In this document: piece by piece, positions 4,603 through 60,149 of the stretch
Position numbering within the stretch: the first letter of the stretch is position 1
How the letters are laid out: every line of letters begins with the position of its first letter
Source: an uncultured Bacteroidota bacterium
GTDB taxonomy: Bacteria > Bacteroidota > Bacteroidia > Chitinophagales > LD1
Assembly (NCBI GenBank): GCA_903919075.1
Contig: CAIXGR010000040.1
Span: 1-64,000 of the forward strand
Direction of reading: 5' to 3'
Length of the DNA stretch: 64,000 nt
The notes under the pieces: generated by a model
Databases searched by the model: none
Seen by the model: the letters and a program-made list of their open reading frames with translations, nothing else
Told to the model about the DNA's origin: nothing
Position numbers and translations under genes: made by a program

Positions 4603-4957
4603 GGCTTTAATTAATTAATGTTTTTTTATACTATAACAGCACCGGTTAAATGGTGCTTTTCGATTCTCTTAATTAACCAATCTGGTTCTCAATTACGGCG
4701 CTCCGGCTAATTCTATCACAGTTCTTTGCCTATACCAAAATGCCATCAAACCTTTCCGCCCTTAAACAGAGCCCGCTGATACTTTTGGTACCGGCAAGCA
4801 GGCAGGCGCGCCAAAAGTAATAAAACAAGTAATAAATAATAGCTTAGTACATAATATCATCTTCTTTCTTTTTCACACGACTGTAATAACGGAACTGAAA
4901 CAAAAATGTTCGGGTATAGAAGGCGGGGCTTCTATACAACTTCCGAATGGTATTAGG
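4603..4957. other. Gap upstream of citrate synthase
   Basis: No protein gene is visible. Minor structures are a six-base-pair hairpin in the citrate synthase leader (4638-4657, AGCACC/GGTGCT), an inverted pair TACTTTTGG/CCAAAAGTA (4780-4788 and 4811-4819), and a nine-base-pair hairpin GTATAGAAG/CTTCTATAC (4914-4937) that may end the minus-strand gene starting at 5404. None has a strong poly-T tract. Confidence 0.45.
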
Positions 4958-5404
4958 CTAGAATATGAGGGATGCGCCCAATGAACCATTGGGTAAAAGG
5001 CCGGTTTGCAGGCTCATGTATTTAAGGCGAGTTTTAAAGTTGATTTTGTTCTTTATACCAAACCCGCCTAGTATAAAGCCACCTACTATACTTATGCCGC
5101 CCGCCACCAAATATATAGTGCCCTGTTGGTGGTTTCGGTTAATATCGGCTGTTGGGTTAGTGTTGCTTGGGTCGGGCATGGTGTTATAAACCTGGGAGCC
5201 TTCGTAAATAAAATAGCTGCCTGCAGCGCATAGGGCCACACCGCCCCCTATCATTAATGTGCCACTGGTATTTAGGCGGGCAAGATGCACCGAATCAGTA
5301 TGGCTGAATGCATGCAGGGCAGGCCTTGACTTAGTGGAATCGGGCTGTGCTGTTACATCAGTAAATATGCACAAAAGGACAAAGAGGAGAAAGTATAGTT
5401 TCAT
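4958..5404 (-). CDS. Small exported membrane protein, unknown function
   Basis: I do not recognise this 148-residue protein. It has an N-terminal signal sequence (MKLYFLLFVLLCIFTDVTA), a polar stretch, and two glycine-rich hydrophobic segments (around GTLMIGGGVALCAAGSYFIY and YLVAGGISIVGGFILGGFGI), which fits a small inner-membrane protein or a short membrane-inserted lipid-facing hairpin. It starts 20 bases downstream of the pheS stop on the same strand, so it is probably cotranscribed with pheS, but nothing links it functionally to tRNA charging. A nine-base-pair hairpin at 4914-4937 follows its stop. Confidence 0.65.
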   Translation of the reverse strand: MKLYFLLFVLLCIFTDVTAQPDSTKSRPALHAFSHTDSVHLARLNTSGTLMIGGGVALCAAGSYFIYEGSQVYNTMPDPSNTNPTADINRNHQQGTIYLVAGGISIVGGFILGGFGIKNKINFKTRLKYMSLQTGLLPNGSLGASLIF

Positions 5405-5424
5405 TGGTTTGATATACCAGGTAT

Positions 5425-6453
5425 TTACCCTGCTGAAAATTGCTTGAGAAAGCGAATGTCGTTTTCAAGAAACAGGCGCAGGTCGTTGATTTGATATTTT
5501 AGCATGGTAATTCTTTCTATACCCATGCCAAACGCAAAGCCTGAATATTTTTTCGGGTCTATTTTGCAATTTTCAAGTACGGCAGGATCAACCATGCCAC
5601 AGCCGCCAATCTCAACCCAACCTGAGTATTTGCAAACAGGACAGCCTTTTTGGCCACATACAAAACACGAAATATCTACCTCGGCACTAGGCTCGGTAAA
5701 AGGAAAAAACGAGGGGCGAAAACGTATTTCGGTATTTCTGCCGAACATTTCTTGAGCAAAATAAAATATGCACTGTTTTAAATCAACGAAAGAAACATTT
5801 TCGTCAATATATAAACCTTCAATCTGGTGAAACGTACAGTGGGCGCGCGCCGTAATGGTTTCATTACGATAAACGCGACCAGGAAAAATATACCGCATAG
5901 GTGGCTTCTCATTCTCCATTACCCGTATTTGCACACTTGAGGTTTGGGTTCGTAAAAGCGTGTTTTTATCTTCAGAAAGAAAGAAAGTATCCTGCATATC
6001 TCGAGCTGGATGGTCGGCTGGGGTATTTAGTGCTGTAAAATTGTGCCAATCGTCTTCAATCTCTGGCCCTTCAACTACAGCAAAACCTATGCGTCCGAAA
6101 ATTTCAATCATCTTATTTTTGATAATGGAAAGCGGATGGCGGGTGCCTAGAGGAATATCATAACCCGGGGCAGTTAAATCAGGGGTCTCTGTTTTTGAAG
6201 ATTTGCCGGTTTGAAATGATTGCCGTAGTTCCTCGAATTTATTTTCGGCAGCGGCCTTTAAGGTGTTCATTAATTGGCCGTATTCTTTCTTCCTTTCGTT
6301 GGGCAATTGAGCCATGTGTCCGAACAAATCTTTCAATACACTTTTAGTTCCTAGGTATTTAATCCGGAATTGCTCCAACTCATCATTATTAGCCGGTGCC
6401 GATGAATTAATTTCAAGTAAAACACTGTTGGCTTTATCAAAAATTTGCTGCAT
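5425..6453 (-). CDS. pheS: Phenylalanine--tRNA ligase alpha subunit
   Basis: Alpha subunit of the alpha2/beta2 class II synthetase that attaches phenylalanine to tRNA-Phe. The 342-residue length is normal for bacterial PheS. An N-terminal helical tRNA-binding part (about 1-90) is followed by the catalytic core: [35 protein letters not shown], motif 2 around [20 protein letters not shown], the segment [19 protein letters not shown], and motif 3 [18 protein letters not shown] near the C-terminus. A Cys-containing loop ([17 protein letters not shown]) resembles the zinc-like knuckle seen in many PheS proteins. The beta-subunit gene pheT is not adjacent, so the two subunits are encoded at separate loci. 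Confidence 0.97.
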
Positions 6454-52511: not shown

Positions 52512-54260
52512 ATGAAAAAATATTTATTTTTTATTGCTGTTTTATTAATAGCTAAAATATCTAGCGGCCAATACTGCGGCAATGCCGGCCCTTTTGAATG
52601 TAGTGTTGATGGATCATTGACCCATTTCGGAGTTTCTGATTACGCAACATTTCCCTGTGTGCATGATAGTGTGCCTTATCATGAAGTATTACAGATATTT
52701 TTTCCGGATTCAGCGGATATAAGCATTTATCGGGTACAAGTTCTTTCTTTCAGCATAGATTCTGTTACTAACCTGCCTTGTGGCCTTTGCTGGAGTTGCA
52801 ACGATAGTACTTTTACGTACGCAGGGGGTACCAAAGGTTGCCTTTTAATATCAGGCACCACCAACGATTTGCATGGAGCTTATCAAATAAACGTATATGG
52901 TAAGGCGAATACAAGCTTCGGCACCGCTAATGGCACTTTAGCCTCGCTTGGCTATCCGTTTTTTCTTAATGTAGTGGGGCAATATGATGATTGTACGCCA
53001 ATTAATTTCTCTACATCCAATATTAGTTGTTCAACCGGACCACCACCAACACCACCAACATGTAATTTTGCAACGCAGGTGGTTGCGTCCAGCTCAGCAT
53101 CTAATTGTCATTTCGATAGTACAACATTAACTGTTATAGAACCCACCGGACCTAGCTATCAGTATTCATGGACTCTTTTTTCCGTTTCATATTTATTCAA
53201 CAACGACGTCTATAATGCTTCGGGGCCAAGTGTCGGGGTTAACGATTCGCTCAATATGGCCTGGTTAACCATTTCAGATAGTACCTGTTATGAATCTTTC
53301 TCTATATATATTGATCCCAAAGTCGGGCCGGTTTGTTCCCCCACCGGTATTTGCTATGCAACTGCCGATAGCAGTTTGCCGGACCATAGCGGCTTAAGTT
53401 TTATTTTCGAAAAAAATGATTGGTTTAATAACATTACCGGGTTCCAAATTTATCGTCAAGATTCAGCAAACCAAATATATTTACCGCTTATTGGTCAAAT
53501 AGGTGCCGGTTCACCGGGCATAATTACTGATGAAAATCCTCTATCGTTCTTTTCCATACATCCTGCTTTAGGCTTTAATGGATTAATGGACTTATACGCA
53601 TTAAGCTATACAACTGCGTGTGATAATCCTAGTGACGGCCTGAATCTTTGGAGTTTCTTTACTCCTTCAACTCTAGGAGTTGATACACTACAAAACGGTT
53701 TGCCACGGCTTATATGGAATAATAGCGACCCTTTAACATATAATAAAATTTACATTTATAGCCGTTATCCGGGCGGCAGTTGGCGCTTACGCTATGGCAG
53801 CATTAACCTAAATGATACTCTTTGGATAGATCAACAACCCGATAGTACCAATATGCAATACATGCTTGCTTATGATCTTACTGTAGATTGCGACCCATTC
53901 CGTTCAGCCAATCACACTGCATTTTCCAATTTTGGCACTACTGTTGTTTCGGCTGAACATGTTTATCACGACACAACAACCACAAATACGGGTATTAACC
54001 AAATATCGGCTTCGGCTACTGTGTTGCTTTATCCTAATCCGGCCAATGACAAATTGCATCTGCAAATAGCAGATGTAAGCACTATAACGCAATTAAATTA
54101 TAAAATATACAATATGCTGGGGCAGTTAATCAGCGCATCATCATTACCCGTTGATTCACGGAACGAACTAAATGTTGAATCGCTGGCAAGTGGTGTTTAC
54201 ACCATAACTTTACAAGCCAACAACCAACCTTTGGCAATAAAAAAGTTTGTGAAGAAGTAG
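52512..54260 (+). CDS. T9SS cargo protein, unknown function
   Basis: A 582-residue exported protein with a signal peptide (MKKYLFFIAVLLIAKISSGQ). The N-terminal part (about 20-190) has many Cys and aromatic residues (GNAGPFECSVDGSLTHFGVS) and a Pro-rich hinge (GPPPTPPTCNFATQVV). The middle has Ig/fibronectin-like strands (ITGFQIYRQDSANQIYLPLI, NKIYIYSRYPGGSWRLRYGS). Residues about 510-582 are a type A T9SS domain (VLLYPNPANDKLHLQI ... LASGVYTITLQANNQPLAIK). I recognise no enzyme motif; adhesion is a guess. It has its own -7 box and follows the typA terminator. Confidence 0.8.
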   Translation: MKKYLFFIAVLLIAKISSGQYCGNAGPFECSVDGSLTHFGVSDYATFPCVHDSVPYHEVLQIFFPDSADISIYRVQVLSFSIDSVTNLPCGLCWSCNDSTFTYAGGTKGCLLISGTTNDLHGAYQINVYGKANTSFGTANGTLASLGYPFFLNVVGQYDDCTPINFSTSNISCSTGPPPTPPTCNFATQVVASSSASNCHFDSTTLTVIEPTGPSYQYSWTLFSVSYLFNNDVYNASGPSVGVNDSLNMAWLTISDSTCYESFSIYIDPKVGPVCSPTGICYATADSSLPDHSGLSFIFEKNDWFNNITGFQIYRQDSANQIYLPLIGQIGAGSPGIITDENPLSFFSIHPALGFNGLMDLYALSYTTACDNPSDGLNLWSFFTPSTLGVDTLQNGLPRLIWNNSDPLTYNKIYIYSRYPGGSWRLRYGSINLNDTLWIDQQPDSTNMQYMLAYDLTVDCDPFRSANHTAFSNFGTTVVSAEHVYHDTTTTNTGINQISASATVLLYPNPANDKLHLQIADVSTITQLNYKIYNMLGQLISASSLPVDSRNELNVESLASGVYTITLQANNQPLAIKKFVKK

Positions 54261-54291: not shown

Positions 54292-54699
54292 GTGAACATT
54301 ATATACAAAAGAGAAATTCCAGACGTTGATAATTTGATGAATTTATATACTGACGTGGGTTGGGGTGTTTACCTGGAATCGCCTGAAAAACTATTGGAAT
54401 CATTAGAAAATTCTCAAGATGTAATATCGGCATGGGATGACAAAAAACTTGTTGGCCTTGTAAGAACCATCGGCGATAAAACCACCATACTATACATTCA
54501 AGACCTATTGGTATTGCACGATTATAAAAGAAATAAAATAGCAACCACTTTAGTTCAAATGCTACTTACAGATTATGCAGATATGAGAATTATACTGCTA
54601 GCCGATAATTACGATGAGCCGCGCAAATTTTACGAATCGCTTGGGTTTAGTTCAAGCAACAGCATTAACACTACCTGCTACATTAAATTACAAGGTTAG
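54292..54699 (+). CDS. GNAT-family N-acetyltransferase
   Basis: A 135-residue acetyl-CoA-dependent acetyltransferase. The GNAT fold is evident: LYTDVGWGVYLESPEKLLES, AWDDKKLVGLVRTIGDKTTI, the acetyl-CoA strand and loop YIQDLLVLHDYKRNKIATTL (here with RNKIAT in place of the usual Q/RxxGxG/A), and the C-terminal EPRKFYESLGFSSSNSIN. It uses a GTG start. Its stop overlaps the stop of the convergent glycine-rich gene by four bases. The acceptor is unknown; the group includes small-molecule and protein acetyltransferases. Confidence 0.8.
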   Translation: MNIIYKREIPDVDNLMNLYTDVGWGVYLESPEKLLESLENSQDVISAWDDKKLVGLVRTIGDKTTILYIQDLLVLHDYKRNKIATTLVQMLLTDYADMRIILLADNYDEPRKFYESLGFSSSNSINTTCYIKLQG

Positions 54700-56096
54700 T
54701 AATACCAGGTTACAACCACCTGCCCATTGCCCGATTGCAAACCGTTTTGCATGTTCGCGGCACTAACGCCTCCTATATATCCGCTTCCACCGCCGCCACC
54801 ACCGGCATCACCACCGCCACCGCCATAATAGCCACCACCACCGCCACCGCCACTATTGTTAGCAGTTCCTGCTTGGCCACCCTGGCCTAATGATCCGTTC
54901 TCAACTGCACCCGCGTAATGATAAACTGTTTCACTAGGGCCACCTGCACTTTGGCTAGCCCCCTGCCCATCATAACCTGGCCCTGCACCACCAGAGCAAA
55001 GCCCTCCGCTTGTTCCACCACCACTACCTCCCGTGGTCGACCAACTGGTAGACGGCACACCGCCACCGCCACCAGCAACAATTACTCTGCTAGCCAAATC
55101 TGTTCCACCAACTCTAACATCCGAAGCACCACCCCCGCCGGCACCGGAGCCAATTCCGGCACCTCCACCATTATACCCACCTGCAGTACCGCTTGGTTGA
55201 TTGCCTACGAATATATAAATCAAATCACCCTGTGTAACGCTTAGTGTGCCGCGCGCATATCCGCCATATCCACCACTGTTGCTGGCTACCGAGCCGCCCT
55301 GCGCACCGTAAACATCAAAGGTTAAACGAGTAACAGCCGTAGGCACCGTAAATGTTTGCTGGCTACCAGTATAGCTAAAAGTTTGCGAGCCGATGAATGA
55401 AACATTTATGGTATCTGAACTTGTAGAGCAGTCGCCAGTAATTGTCCAGCTTAATACGTACGCATTACCTGATATACCTGTGAATGTACTATTTGCGCTT
55501 GCAGGATTGGAAAAACTACCACCGGTGCCTCTTACAACTGTCCATAATCCGCTTCCATTTATAGCTGTGTTAGCAGCCAAGTTAATAGTAGTATCTTGTT
55601 GGTTTAATTGGTCCGAACCGGCATAAGCAGCAGTAGGTGCCTCAGCAAAAACCGAAGTCATTTGAAAGTTAGTGCCGTCGTAAACCACTGTTACTACTTG
55701 CTTATTCTGTATTTCGCAACCTGCTAAATTTTTATTAATAAATTTTTTAATAGGTATAGCGCCCAGGTTATTTACATTTAGCGTAGCGGGACCGCTAACA
55801 TTTTGATTTGATATAAAATTAAACACCATGCCCGCCTGATATGCTGTAATGGGCGGGTAAATAGTGATATTGAAGTTATTGTTAGATCCGGTGGCAACTG
55901 CATATATAAGTGTACCGCTTTGAACTGATTGTACACTGGTAGCATCTAAACTATCGGTTACGCTTTTAATGCCACTAACTTTGGCATTAGTCCCATTGCC
56001 GGTCAGCAATATAGCATGATCTATTTGCACCTGAGCAAAAGTAGATGAGGCTATTAAAAGACATAAAGCGATTATATAGAATTTCGGTTTTTTCAT
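54696..56096 (-). CDS. Secreted glycine-rich protein with phage-tail-fibre-like module, copy B
   Basis: A 466-residue exported protein (signal peptide about 1-21). Its N-terminal region (about 60-150: SGTLIYAVATGSNNNFNITI, YPPITAYQAGMVFNFISNQN, then SGPATLNVNNLGAIPIKKF and VVTVVYDGTNFQMTS) matches the beta-rich repeat common in phage tail-fibre and tail-associated proteins. A PKD-like segment (AGSDQLNQQDTTINLAANT) follows. From about residue 240, TFTVPTAVTRLTFDVYGAQG opens a glycine-rich domain like those at 36372-37934 and 58455-60149, ending GNGQVVVTWYY. No phage genes or T9SS domain are present. Probable surface or extracellular adhesin. Confidence 0.8.
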   Translation of the reverse strand: MKKPKFYIIALCLLIASSTFAQVQIDHAILLTGNGTNAKVSGIKSVTDSLDATSVQSVQSGTLIYAVATGSNNNFNITIYPPITAYQAGMVFNFISNQNVSGPATLNVNNLGAIPIKKFINKNLAGCEIQNKQVVTVVYDGTNFQMTSVFAEAPTAAYAGSDQLNQQDTTINLAANTAINGSGLWTVVRGTGGSFSNPASANSTFTGISGNAYVLSWTITGDCSTSSDTINVSFIGSQTFSYTGSQQTFTVPTAVTRLTFDVYGAQGGSVASNSGGYGGYARGTLSVTQGDLIYIFVGNQPSGTAGGYNGGGAGIGSGAGGGGASDVRVGGTDLASRVIVAGGGGGVPSTSWSTTGGSGGGTSGGLCSGGAGPGYDGQGASQSAGGPSETVYHYAGAVENGSLGQGGQAGTANNSGGGGGGGYYGGGGGDAGGGGGGSGYIGGVSAANMQNGLQSGNGQVVVTWYY

Positions 56097-58454: not shown

Positions 58455-60149
58455 TTAGTAGGTTATAATAACATAACCATTACCGGTTTGAACACCATTT
58501 TGCATGGAACCATTTGTTACGCCGCCTATATAACCCGAGCCACCGCCACCACCGCCTGCCTCGCCACCGCCGCCGCCATACCAACCACCGCCACCACCGC
58601 TCGATTCTCCATTATTATAACTGCCTCTTCCACCCTGCCCAAACGAACCATCCGTTGCTCCGCTTCCAGGATAACCGGTATCCTGGGCACCACCCGCTGA
58701 TTGAGTGCCACCTGCACCATTGCGATAGGTGCCATTGCTACTGGTTCCGGTACCACCTATAAGCCCGCCCCCTTCGCCACCGGTAACAGTCCATGAGTGC
58801 GTAGCACCACCACCGCCGCCGCCAACAATTACCCTGTTCGATAAAGTATTGCCACCTACCCTAACATCTGTGCCCCCACCACCGCCAGATGGGTAGCTAC
58901 CTACACCGTCTCCCCCACCATTAAAACCACCAACGTATGAATATGGTATTCCTCCTACATTAATATAAAGCATATCTCCGGGTGTTACACTCAAATTGCC
59001 TGTTGCATATCCCCCAAGGCCACCGGTATTACCGCCGCTTGTTCCTCCCTGCGCGCCCCATACTTTTATATTAATATTGGTAATGCCATTAGGCACGGTC
59101 CAGGTTTGTTGGTTACCGGTATAATTAAATTGTTGGGTTACCGCATTGGTAATAACAACACCGGTAGTGGTAGTAGATGAACAGCCATTTAAAGTAACCG
59201 TTAAACTTACATTATAAGTACCGCCTGAAGTCCAATATATAGCCGGATTTTGAGCCGTGCTGGAAGAGCTTGAACCGCTGGCAAAAGTCCAACTATAAGT
59301 ACCACCGTTTGTAGAAGGAGTAAAAGTTATTGTAGAATCAGTTTTGCCAGATGTAGGGCTAAACGCCGATGAAGGCAATGTATCAACACTTACAGTTGTT
59401 GTTCCCGCAGCCGAATTACAACCTGCAACTGTAGCTACAACGCTATAGGTTCCAGTATCTGCTAACTGCACATTAGGTACCGATGCATTTTGAGTTGAAG
59501 AAGTGAAACCGTTGGGGCCGGTCCAATTATAACTGGCACTGTTTATTGTACTTGATGCAAGATTTAAAGTTTGCCCCATGCAAACTGGGCCATTGTTACT
59601 TGCAGTCGGTGTTTGAGGGGTAGCATTAACAGTAGCTACTGTAATTTGAGCTTGCGATGTACAGCCATTCAGGGTGGCCGTAACATAATACGAACCACTT
59701 GCTGCAGCCGAGGCATTTGCAATGGTTGGGTTTTGCATGTTAGAAGTAAAACCATTCGGCCCGGTCCAGCTATAGGTTGCACCAGAAACCGGAAGCGCCA
59801 TAAGATTTAAAGTTTGACCCGCACAAATAGGCCCGTTGTTTGAAGCCAGCGGATTATTAAAATCACAATCGCCACACCATTGCCGCCAACCATTGCCTAC
59901 ATAAACATTAAAACAGTTAGTAGTAGTATTAAAAAGAAAAAGCCCCAAGGCAGGATTAGAAATGGAATCGCGTTGGGCGGTTGTCATGCGCGGAGATAGC
60001 TGACCTTTATTTGTAAAATTGACATCCAGCCCTGCTGAAGGGTCTGGAGGGCTGCCGCTTGAGCCTATTGCTATTCCCTGCCCAAATCCTGCTATATTGA
60101 ACGCAATAAAACATGCGCCAAAAACTACTTTCAGTAAATTCTGTTTCAT
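58455..60149 (-). CDS. Secreted Ig/PKD-like and glycine-rich protein, copy C
   Basis: A 564-residue exported protein (signal peptide about 1-24). Its N-terminal module (PDPSAGLDVNFTNKGQLSPR, MTTAQRDSISNPALGLFLFN, then YVGNGWRQWC) is the one shared with 36372-37934. Two Ig-like repeats (SNNGPICAGQTLNLMALPVS, SNNGPVCMGQTLNLASSTIN) and a PKD domain (SAFSPTSGKTDSTITFTPST) lead to a glycine-rich domain from about residue 355 (QQTWTVPNGITNINIKVWGA) to the end GNGYVIITY. There is no T9SS domain. The run of glycine codons produces long spurious ORFs on other frames. Probably extracellular and adhesive. Confidence 0.8.
   Translation of the reverse strand: MKQNLLKVVFGACFIAFNIAGFGQGIAIGSSGSPPDPSAGLDVNFTNKGQLSPRMTTAQRDSISNPALGLFLFNTTTNCFNVYVGNGWRQWCGDCDFNNPLASNNGPICAGQTLNLMALPVSGATYSWTGPNGFTSNMQNPTIANASAAASGSYYVTATLNGCTSQAQITVATVNATPQTPTASNNGPVCMGQTLNLASSTINSASYNWTGPNGFTSSTQNASVPNVQLADTGTYSVVATVAGCNSAAGTTTVSVDTLPSSAFSPTSGKTDSTITFTPSTNGGTYSWTFASGSSSSSTAQNPAIYWTSGGTYNVSLTVTLNGCSSTTTTGVVITNAVTQQFNYTGNQQTWTVPNGITNINIKVWGAQGGTSGGNTGGLGGYATGNLSVTPGDMLYINVGGIPYSYVGGFNGGGDGVGSYPSGGGGGTDVRVGGNTLSNRVIVGGGGGGATHSWTVTGGEGGGLIGGTGTSSNGTYRNGAGGTQSAGGAQDTGYPGSGATDGSFGQGGRGSYNNGESSGGGGGWYGGGGGEAGGGGGGSGYIGGVTNGSMQNGVQTGNGYVIITY

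Follow-up and report, generated by a model that had tools for sequence, protein, structure and literature searches.

The protein encoded on the minus strand at positions 54696–56096 of the window (the whole 64,000-nucleotide stretch of DNA analysed here) is, in the reading that we consider fairly probable, an adhesin-like protein of the cell that is exported through Sec and assembled from parts of phage tail fibres. The open reading frame, its tail-fibre-like module and its glycine-rich domain lie where a preliminary description of this DNA had placed them, and the module does occur in an exported protein of the cell, joined there to Ig-like and glycine-rich domains. That observation is confirmed as real and is larger than claimed; the neck, the 11 genomic copies and the fibre-tip likeness of the glycine-rich domain itself had been overlooked. 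The features are as follows.

54696–56096, minus strand: whole open reading frame (466 aa), exported fibre-like protein, one of 11 bead copies in its own genome
56034–56096, minus strand: putative signal peptide, residues 1–21, read from the sequence, with cleavage between FA and Q (Bacteroidetes Q rule)
55914–56033, minus strand: tail-fibre neck, residues 22–61 (..AKVSGIKSVTDSLDATSVQSVQSG), with a phrog_28171 match and, by reading, likeness to neck beta-layers
55647–55913, minus strand: tail-fibre shaft bead, residues 62–150, with sequence and fold matches
55389–55634, minus strand: Ig/PKD-like spacer, residues ~155–236, assigned by sequence, with a weak PKD match in paralogue L014 and pLDDT < 50
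54699–55391, minus strand: TNF-like plus glycine-rich head of the ALK/LTK GRD type, residues 236–466, with PF12810 and fold matches
58455–60149, minus strand: second protein of exported type, whose head is similar and whose N-terminal stem is different, matching PF12810 (E 1.4e-21) and PKD

The trimeric shaft bead in fibre gp47 of Pseudomonas phage Pa193 is a homologue of residues 62–150. A tblastn search of 50,697 phage records with residues 57–154 retrieved 309 records at E ≤ 0.01 (best E 8e-6), and in 297 of these the alignment spanned 80% or more of the query; among the 60 phage matches listed, identity was 30–34% and the annotation was mostly tail fibre or tail protein. Compared with PHROGs, the bead module matched phrog_28171 (E 5.9e-12) and phrog_4900, 'tail protein' (E 7.3e-11), and the same two families were matched by 59 and 61, respectively, of the 69 aligned bead members. 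The profile built from these 69 rows retrieved a single sequence from the PDB at E ≤ 10, namely the gp47 tail fibre of Pa193 (9b45, E 1.1e-16). The single 54696–56096 protein, used as a query against the same database, gave five sequences at E 0.64–1.4, none of them significant. The bead has no common Pfam family: no model over its cut-off covers the bead of the 54696–56096 protein, and any one family matches at most 5 of the 69 members at E ≤ 0.1. An NCBIfam scan of the protein gave no match.

The AlphaFold2 model of the bead (mean pLDDT 84.6, block means 94–97 over residues 51–120 of 129) led to the same fibre. The sole PDB match in Foldseek at E ≤ 0.001 was 9b45_2, accompanied by 65 matches to viral models at that threshold, and structural alignment with 9b45 covered 88 residues at 2.4 Å (Z 10.1; next entry Z 3.3). 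Because, according to the Pa193 paper, gp47 in 9b45 was obtained by fitting an AlphaFold model to the density (CC 0.71), the fold match is partly one of model against model. The same paper describes gp47 residues 1–340 as three trimeric beads-on-a-string of four-stranded sheets, and the matched residues 243–335 probably represent the third bead. The preliminary description had proposed the capture of a viral receptor-binding fold. Kinship with phage tails stands far above chance in tblastn, PHROGs and 9b45, and both structure prediction and profile search of residues 60–150 reach a phage tail fibre; however, since the match is to the beads-on-a-string of gp47, the module is a part of the shaft and not a receptor-binding domain, and the proposal does not hold in this respect.

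Upstream of the bead, residues 22–61 appear, in our reading of the sequence, to resemble known neck beta-layers, a strand-to-helix trimerisation motif. The phrog_28171 match begins at residue 2 of the mature chain. The beta-layer table of PMC4786415, in the portion available, includes DTDAVNYAQL from a trimeric autotransporter and NDHAATKAYVD from a tail-fibre hyaluronidase, and the beta-layer proteins found there are homotrimers with one exception; the 54696–56096 protein is probably trimeric. When the neck was sought with a sequence pattern, 8 of the 11 own-genome copies and none of the viral loci were flagged; reading, aided by profile matches starting at model columns 18–27 and by phrog_28171, recognised a neck in 5 of 53 viral loci (L061, L068, L071, L081 and L083). 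In the second genome described below, SJ145, protein L136 has DAANKKYVDD at the neck position and, by reading, is without a bead.

The part that is of a receptor-binding type is the C-terminal glycine-rich head, the predicted fold of which is like those of ALK/LTK and the Pam3 fibre tip. The head matches PF12810 (ALK_LTK_GRD) with E 8.4e-21 and 75.5 bits, the Pfam cut-off being 24.5. The model of residues 150–466 is of moderate quality (mean pLDDT 65, with the spacer below 50); by blocks, the first 120 residues of the head reach 73–95 and its glycine-rich middle 37–68. The head model aligned with ALK (Z 13.7, 184 residues, 3.3 Å), with the Pam3 fibre (Z 10.3, 133 residues, 2.5 Å) and with the Bxb1 tail tip (Z 8.9), the next entry having Z 3.2, and in Foldseek the ALK/LTK chains came top (E 8e-8), with Bxb1 at 0.0065 and the Pam3 fibre at 0.015. 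In a profile search of the PDB, ALK was reached at E 0.12 only. A tblastn search of the phage records with the head gave nothing at 1e-5, a setting in which the low-complexity filter could mask matches. The viral scan with the single head sequence gave no match, and that with a seven-row head alignment gave 13 loci. A local profile of ALK-type heads retrieved nothing at E ≤ 1 from the 80 bead ORFs of L022–L094, after which Pfam PF21722 matched three of the four proteins scanned. The PKD-like part of the 54696–56096 protein had no Pfam match, and the weak PKD match in paralogue L014 (E 0.0042) lies below the cut-off. Bead and head thus each look like part of a fibre, and the bacterial components are the signal peptide and the Ig/PKD-like spacer, which we take to be a domain of Bacteroidota type.

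The bead family is old, resident and constrained by purifying selection. The own genome encodes 11 diverged neck-plus-bead copies, each on a contig of its own and none interrupted by a stop, and these copies adjoin ribosomal, transport and metabolic genes, as recognised by reading sequence starts. Mean pN/pS is 0.43 and the maximum 0.63 (55 pairs), with pS 0.66–0.82 in the ten pairs listed, and bead GC3 is 0.26–0.40 against 0.37 ± 0.04 for 32 ORFs of the window. The heads of the ten other copies are diverse: PF12810 is over the cut-off in L014 and L020 and slightly below it in L019, L021 and L011, the last of which has a head that ends early and PF21722 over the cut-off; L018 carries Fib_succ_major and L017 a sub-threshold Collar match; and no Pfam match was found to the heads of L013 (glycine-rich by reading), L015 (headless) and L016. 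With the stem constant and the heads varying among paralogues, the exported fibres of this genome would differ from one another in their tips. PF12810 has 17 matches in the own genome and is also present in 9 of 29 other sampled relatives.

Some bead proteins are short or C-terminal and end in DPTLIYTTNGF or DQTLIYTTRGF (L015 at 5771–6292, minus strand, with 5316–5723 and 4646–5074; likewise L024 and L139). In three genomes a small protein of exported type, which begins with a TLQF segment, comes immediately after such a bead protein, and the two look like a stem-plus-tip partner pair. By reading, the halves of the TLQF partner apparently stand in swapped order before neck and bead, as if circularly permuted, in L026 (5394–6269, plus strand) and L135 (1516–2832, plus strand). 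Separately, L139 (2015–4180, plus strand) has a bead behind a long collagen-like triple-helix repeat (PF01391).

The genome labelled Crocinitomicaceae bacterium SJ145, a fragmented MAG that could be chimeric, contains 12 bead matches, one of them partial. Its protein L129 has, by reading, its parts in the same order as the window protein, and the heads align with 53% identity, with no Pfam match in L129; a relative with the same fusion, as looked for in the preliminary description, is therefore at hand. Pfam matched 6 of the 10 SJ145 proteins scanned and left 4 without a match; the heads were DUF1554 (L130 and L136, and below the cut-off in L022), Kelch (L131), DUF2341 (L132, second protein), PF21722 (L135) and PKD_6 (L022). 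With the own genome included, the bead occurs in 2 of 18 genomes of the genus, 3 of 30 of the family, 3 of 60 relatives and at least 2 of 395 Bacteroidota genomes of a phylum sample, the other genome matching over 27 positions only; this last count is a lower bound, because at most 10 candidates were scored per genome (10 of the 11 own copies were recovered). The family of SJ145 has the bead in 2 of 114 genomes, SJ145 included, and a named scan with two peptide patterns confirmed 20 loci out of 96 candidates.

Among viral sequences 53 loci were confirmed out of 134 candidates, some with tandem beads. Two proteins of viral contig L046 join a bead to a glycine-rich domain, with PF21722 over the cut-off, and adjoin a DNA-transfer/head-morphogenesis protein; in phage locus L081, neck and bead (by reading) stand beside virion, endolysin and integrase genes. 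The bead proteins of three IMG/VR contigs (L054, L056 and L057) start with an apparent signal peptide and are either exported phage fibres or miscalled contigs.

The bead tree (94 beads, 94 columns kept) is unrooted and leaves 44 of its 91 inner branches open. The window bead falls in a starred clade of seven, consisting of six own-genome copies and L129 of SJ145, and the own-genome label changes at least three times on starred branches. The label 'exported' was given to 37 rows from N-termini read by eye, the protein start being seen in 36 of them (all but L031, first bead); a single clade of all 37 is compatible with the data (p-AU 0.511), the tree being short and unrooted. That fit, and the presence of exported bead proteins in several Bacteroidota genomes, would accord with neck and bead being an old exported bacterial module that phages had borrowed. 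We hold this to be unlikely, though it is the most serious competitor, given that the bead is present in 309 phage records and 53 viral contigs, in tandem in some, as against at least 2 of 395 Bacteroidota genomes, the own one included. Capture from phage for bacterial use, that is, transfer from phage to bacterium, is plausible.

The signal peptide is upheld, as a putative one, by reading of the N-terminus. The Q that follows it is invariant in 11 of 11 own-genome bead copies, as in the Q rule for signal-peptide cleavage in Bacteroidetes (PMC5837995, available part); a strict pattern of the site matched 15 of 23 proteins, and by reading the residue before the Q is A, S or G in each of the 23. 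The 54696–56096 protein has no lipoprotein Cys, and in Pfam and NCBIfam scans it showed no outer-membrane anchor or T9SS sorting domain, nor the Por_Secre_tail domain of T9SS type A substrates. The latter domain is present in the neighbour at 52512–54260, and the own genome (3.5 Mb) has at least 150 T9SS-type C-terminal domains. Lacking such signals, the protein could be retained in the periplasm. A protein acting in the periplasm or cell envelope, and not as a surface adhesin, would accord with a putative signal peptide that is not joined by any recognised outer-membrane export or anchoring signal; we give this explanation a small but real chance. Against it, the recognised heads are not dominated by any family of enzymes or toxins, and the glycine-rich tip, Kelch and Ig/PKD heads are of kinds that bind or act as spacers, an argument that is weak because DUF1554, DUF2341 and Fib_succ_major are functionally uncharacterised. 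We infer that the adhesin-like protein resides at the surface, in keeping with the 'surface use' first proposed for it.

The second glycine-rich protein of the window (58455–60149) is outside the ten flanking proteins scanned for phage functions. Its PHROG matches include the glycine-rich families found for the first protein and, through the Ig part, phrog_3995 ('tail protein', E 1.5e-7); the two heads are 56% identical. On the minus strand like the first, it carries Ig-like and PKD domains on a 'LDVNFTNKGQLSPRMTTAQRD' stem. The unrooted tree of seven heads has one starred branch, which separates L019, L021 and SJ145 L129 from the window copy, L014, L020 and the 58455–60149 head; the last pairs with the window head at 82/85, unstarred. 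This tree suggests that heads have moved between stems. A more elaborate version, which we regard as quite improbable, is a polymorphic display on a captured phage-fibre stem, with heads exchanged between exported stems and with released or displayed tips occupying phage receptors, so that the proteins would be decoys or masks against phage adsorption and not plain adhesins.

Three of the ten flanking proteins (44.9–62.6 kb) match PHROGs at 1e-5, as elongation factor, acetyltransferase and helicase; at this threshold none of the ten matches a virion protein or a fibre-assembly PHROG. The earlier remark that no phage genes are near is thus sustained as regards virion functions, and there is no sign of a prophage. 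That the gene belongs to a decayed prophage, or is a stray phage gene, is very improbable even though the domains of its product are tail-fibre domains: by reading, signal peptides are present in 11 of 11 copies, and the copies occupy 11 contigs with ribosomal, transport and metabolic neighbours (also by reading), have no internal stops and show host-like GC3. Prophage membership was rejected on the absence of virion genes among the ten flanking proteins. A fibre of an extracellular contractile injection system (eCIS) or tailocin is the least credible origin; such systems have trimeric fibres whose receptor-binding domains vary, and some of the anchor types occur in Bacteroidota (PMC12923769, in the part available), but the chain begins with a signal peptide, and the sole sheath family searched, Phage_sheath_1 (PF04984), was absent from the own genome and SJ145 while a control matched 3 of 14 genomes, so that an eCIS tail fibre was rejected for lack of a PF04984 match in the own genome. 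A trimeric autotransporter adhesin was also rejected, there being no YadA anchor barrel and PF12810 alone in Pfam at E ≤ 1.

The individual pieces are known: Pa193 gp47, Pam3 gp24, the ALK glycine-rich domain, the necks of trimeric autotransporter adhesins and S74 chaperone domains. The presumed third bead of gp47 shares sequence and fold with the window bead, but gp47, in the available text, has several beads and a baseplate-binding N-terminus, whereas the window protein has one bead after signal peptide and neck. Fibre gp24 of cyanophage Pam3 (7ypx), with its TNF-like plus glycine-rich tip, has a fold in common with the window head; as far as its description is available, it differs in having a helical baseplate domain and a separate chaperone, no fibre-assembly PHROG being found among the ten flanking proteins here. 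The glycine-rich domain of ALK/LTK (PF12810) matches the head by Pfam and fold, but belongs to the ectodomain of an animal receptor kinase, whereas the window head is bacterial and fused to a fibre stem. Adhesins of the YadA type share, by reading, a neck-like motif, and the phage relative L081 has a YadA_stalk match below the cut-off (E 0.0029); unlike them, the window protein has no anchor barrel found by Pfam. A second exported class, L029 and L030, resembles the window protein as exported bead proteins and differs from it in having no neck, the bead directly following the signal peptide, and in a long repeat region and a Peptidase_S74 chaperone domain. A fibrillar adhesin-like protein is defined, in the accessible part of PMC8286594, by a listed adhesive and a listed stalk Pfam domain; the window bead has no Pfam model over the cut-off. 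We tentatively call the family fibrillar adhesin-like proteins made from phage-fibre parts. No recognised account of an exported tail-fibre protein family in Bacteroidota was found in the open-licence literature.

In the explanation that we propose, removal of the signal peptide would leave a mature chain opening with a fibre neck and one shaft bead, which together would hold three chains as a short stem. The stem would be followed by the Ig-like spacer and then by the TNF-like/glycine-rich head, a type that recognises the receptor as the tip of the Pam3 fibre and forms the ligand-binding part of ALK. Outside the cell, such fibre tips would most likely adhere to glycans, particles or other cells.

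Cells are known to reuse phage tail machinery in the form of complete contractile devices. In the present case isolated fibre parts make up an exported family, which numbers 11 copies in one Bacteroidota genome, 12 in another, distant one, and few in the remaining genomes of the samples. If trimerisation and surface location are true, the family would represent a route by which cells gain binding diversity from phages, would point to a domain absent from the Pfam and NCBIfam copies searched, and would offer naturally occurring stems on which tips can be exchanged. Whether cells block phage adsorption by means of fibre tips becomes a testable question.
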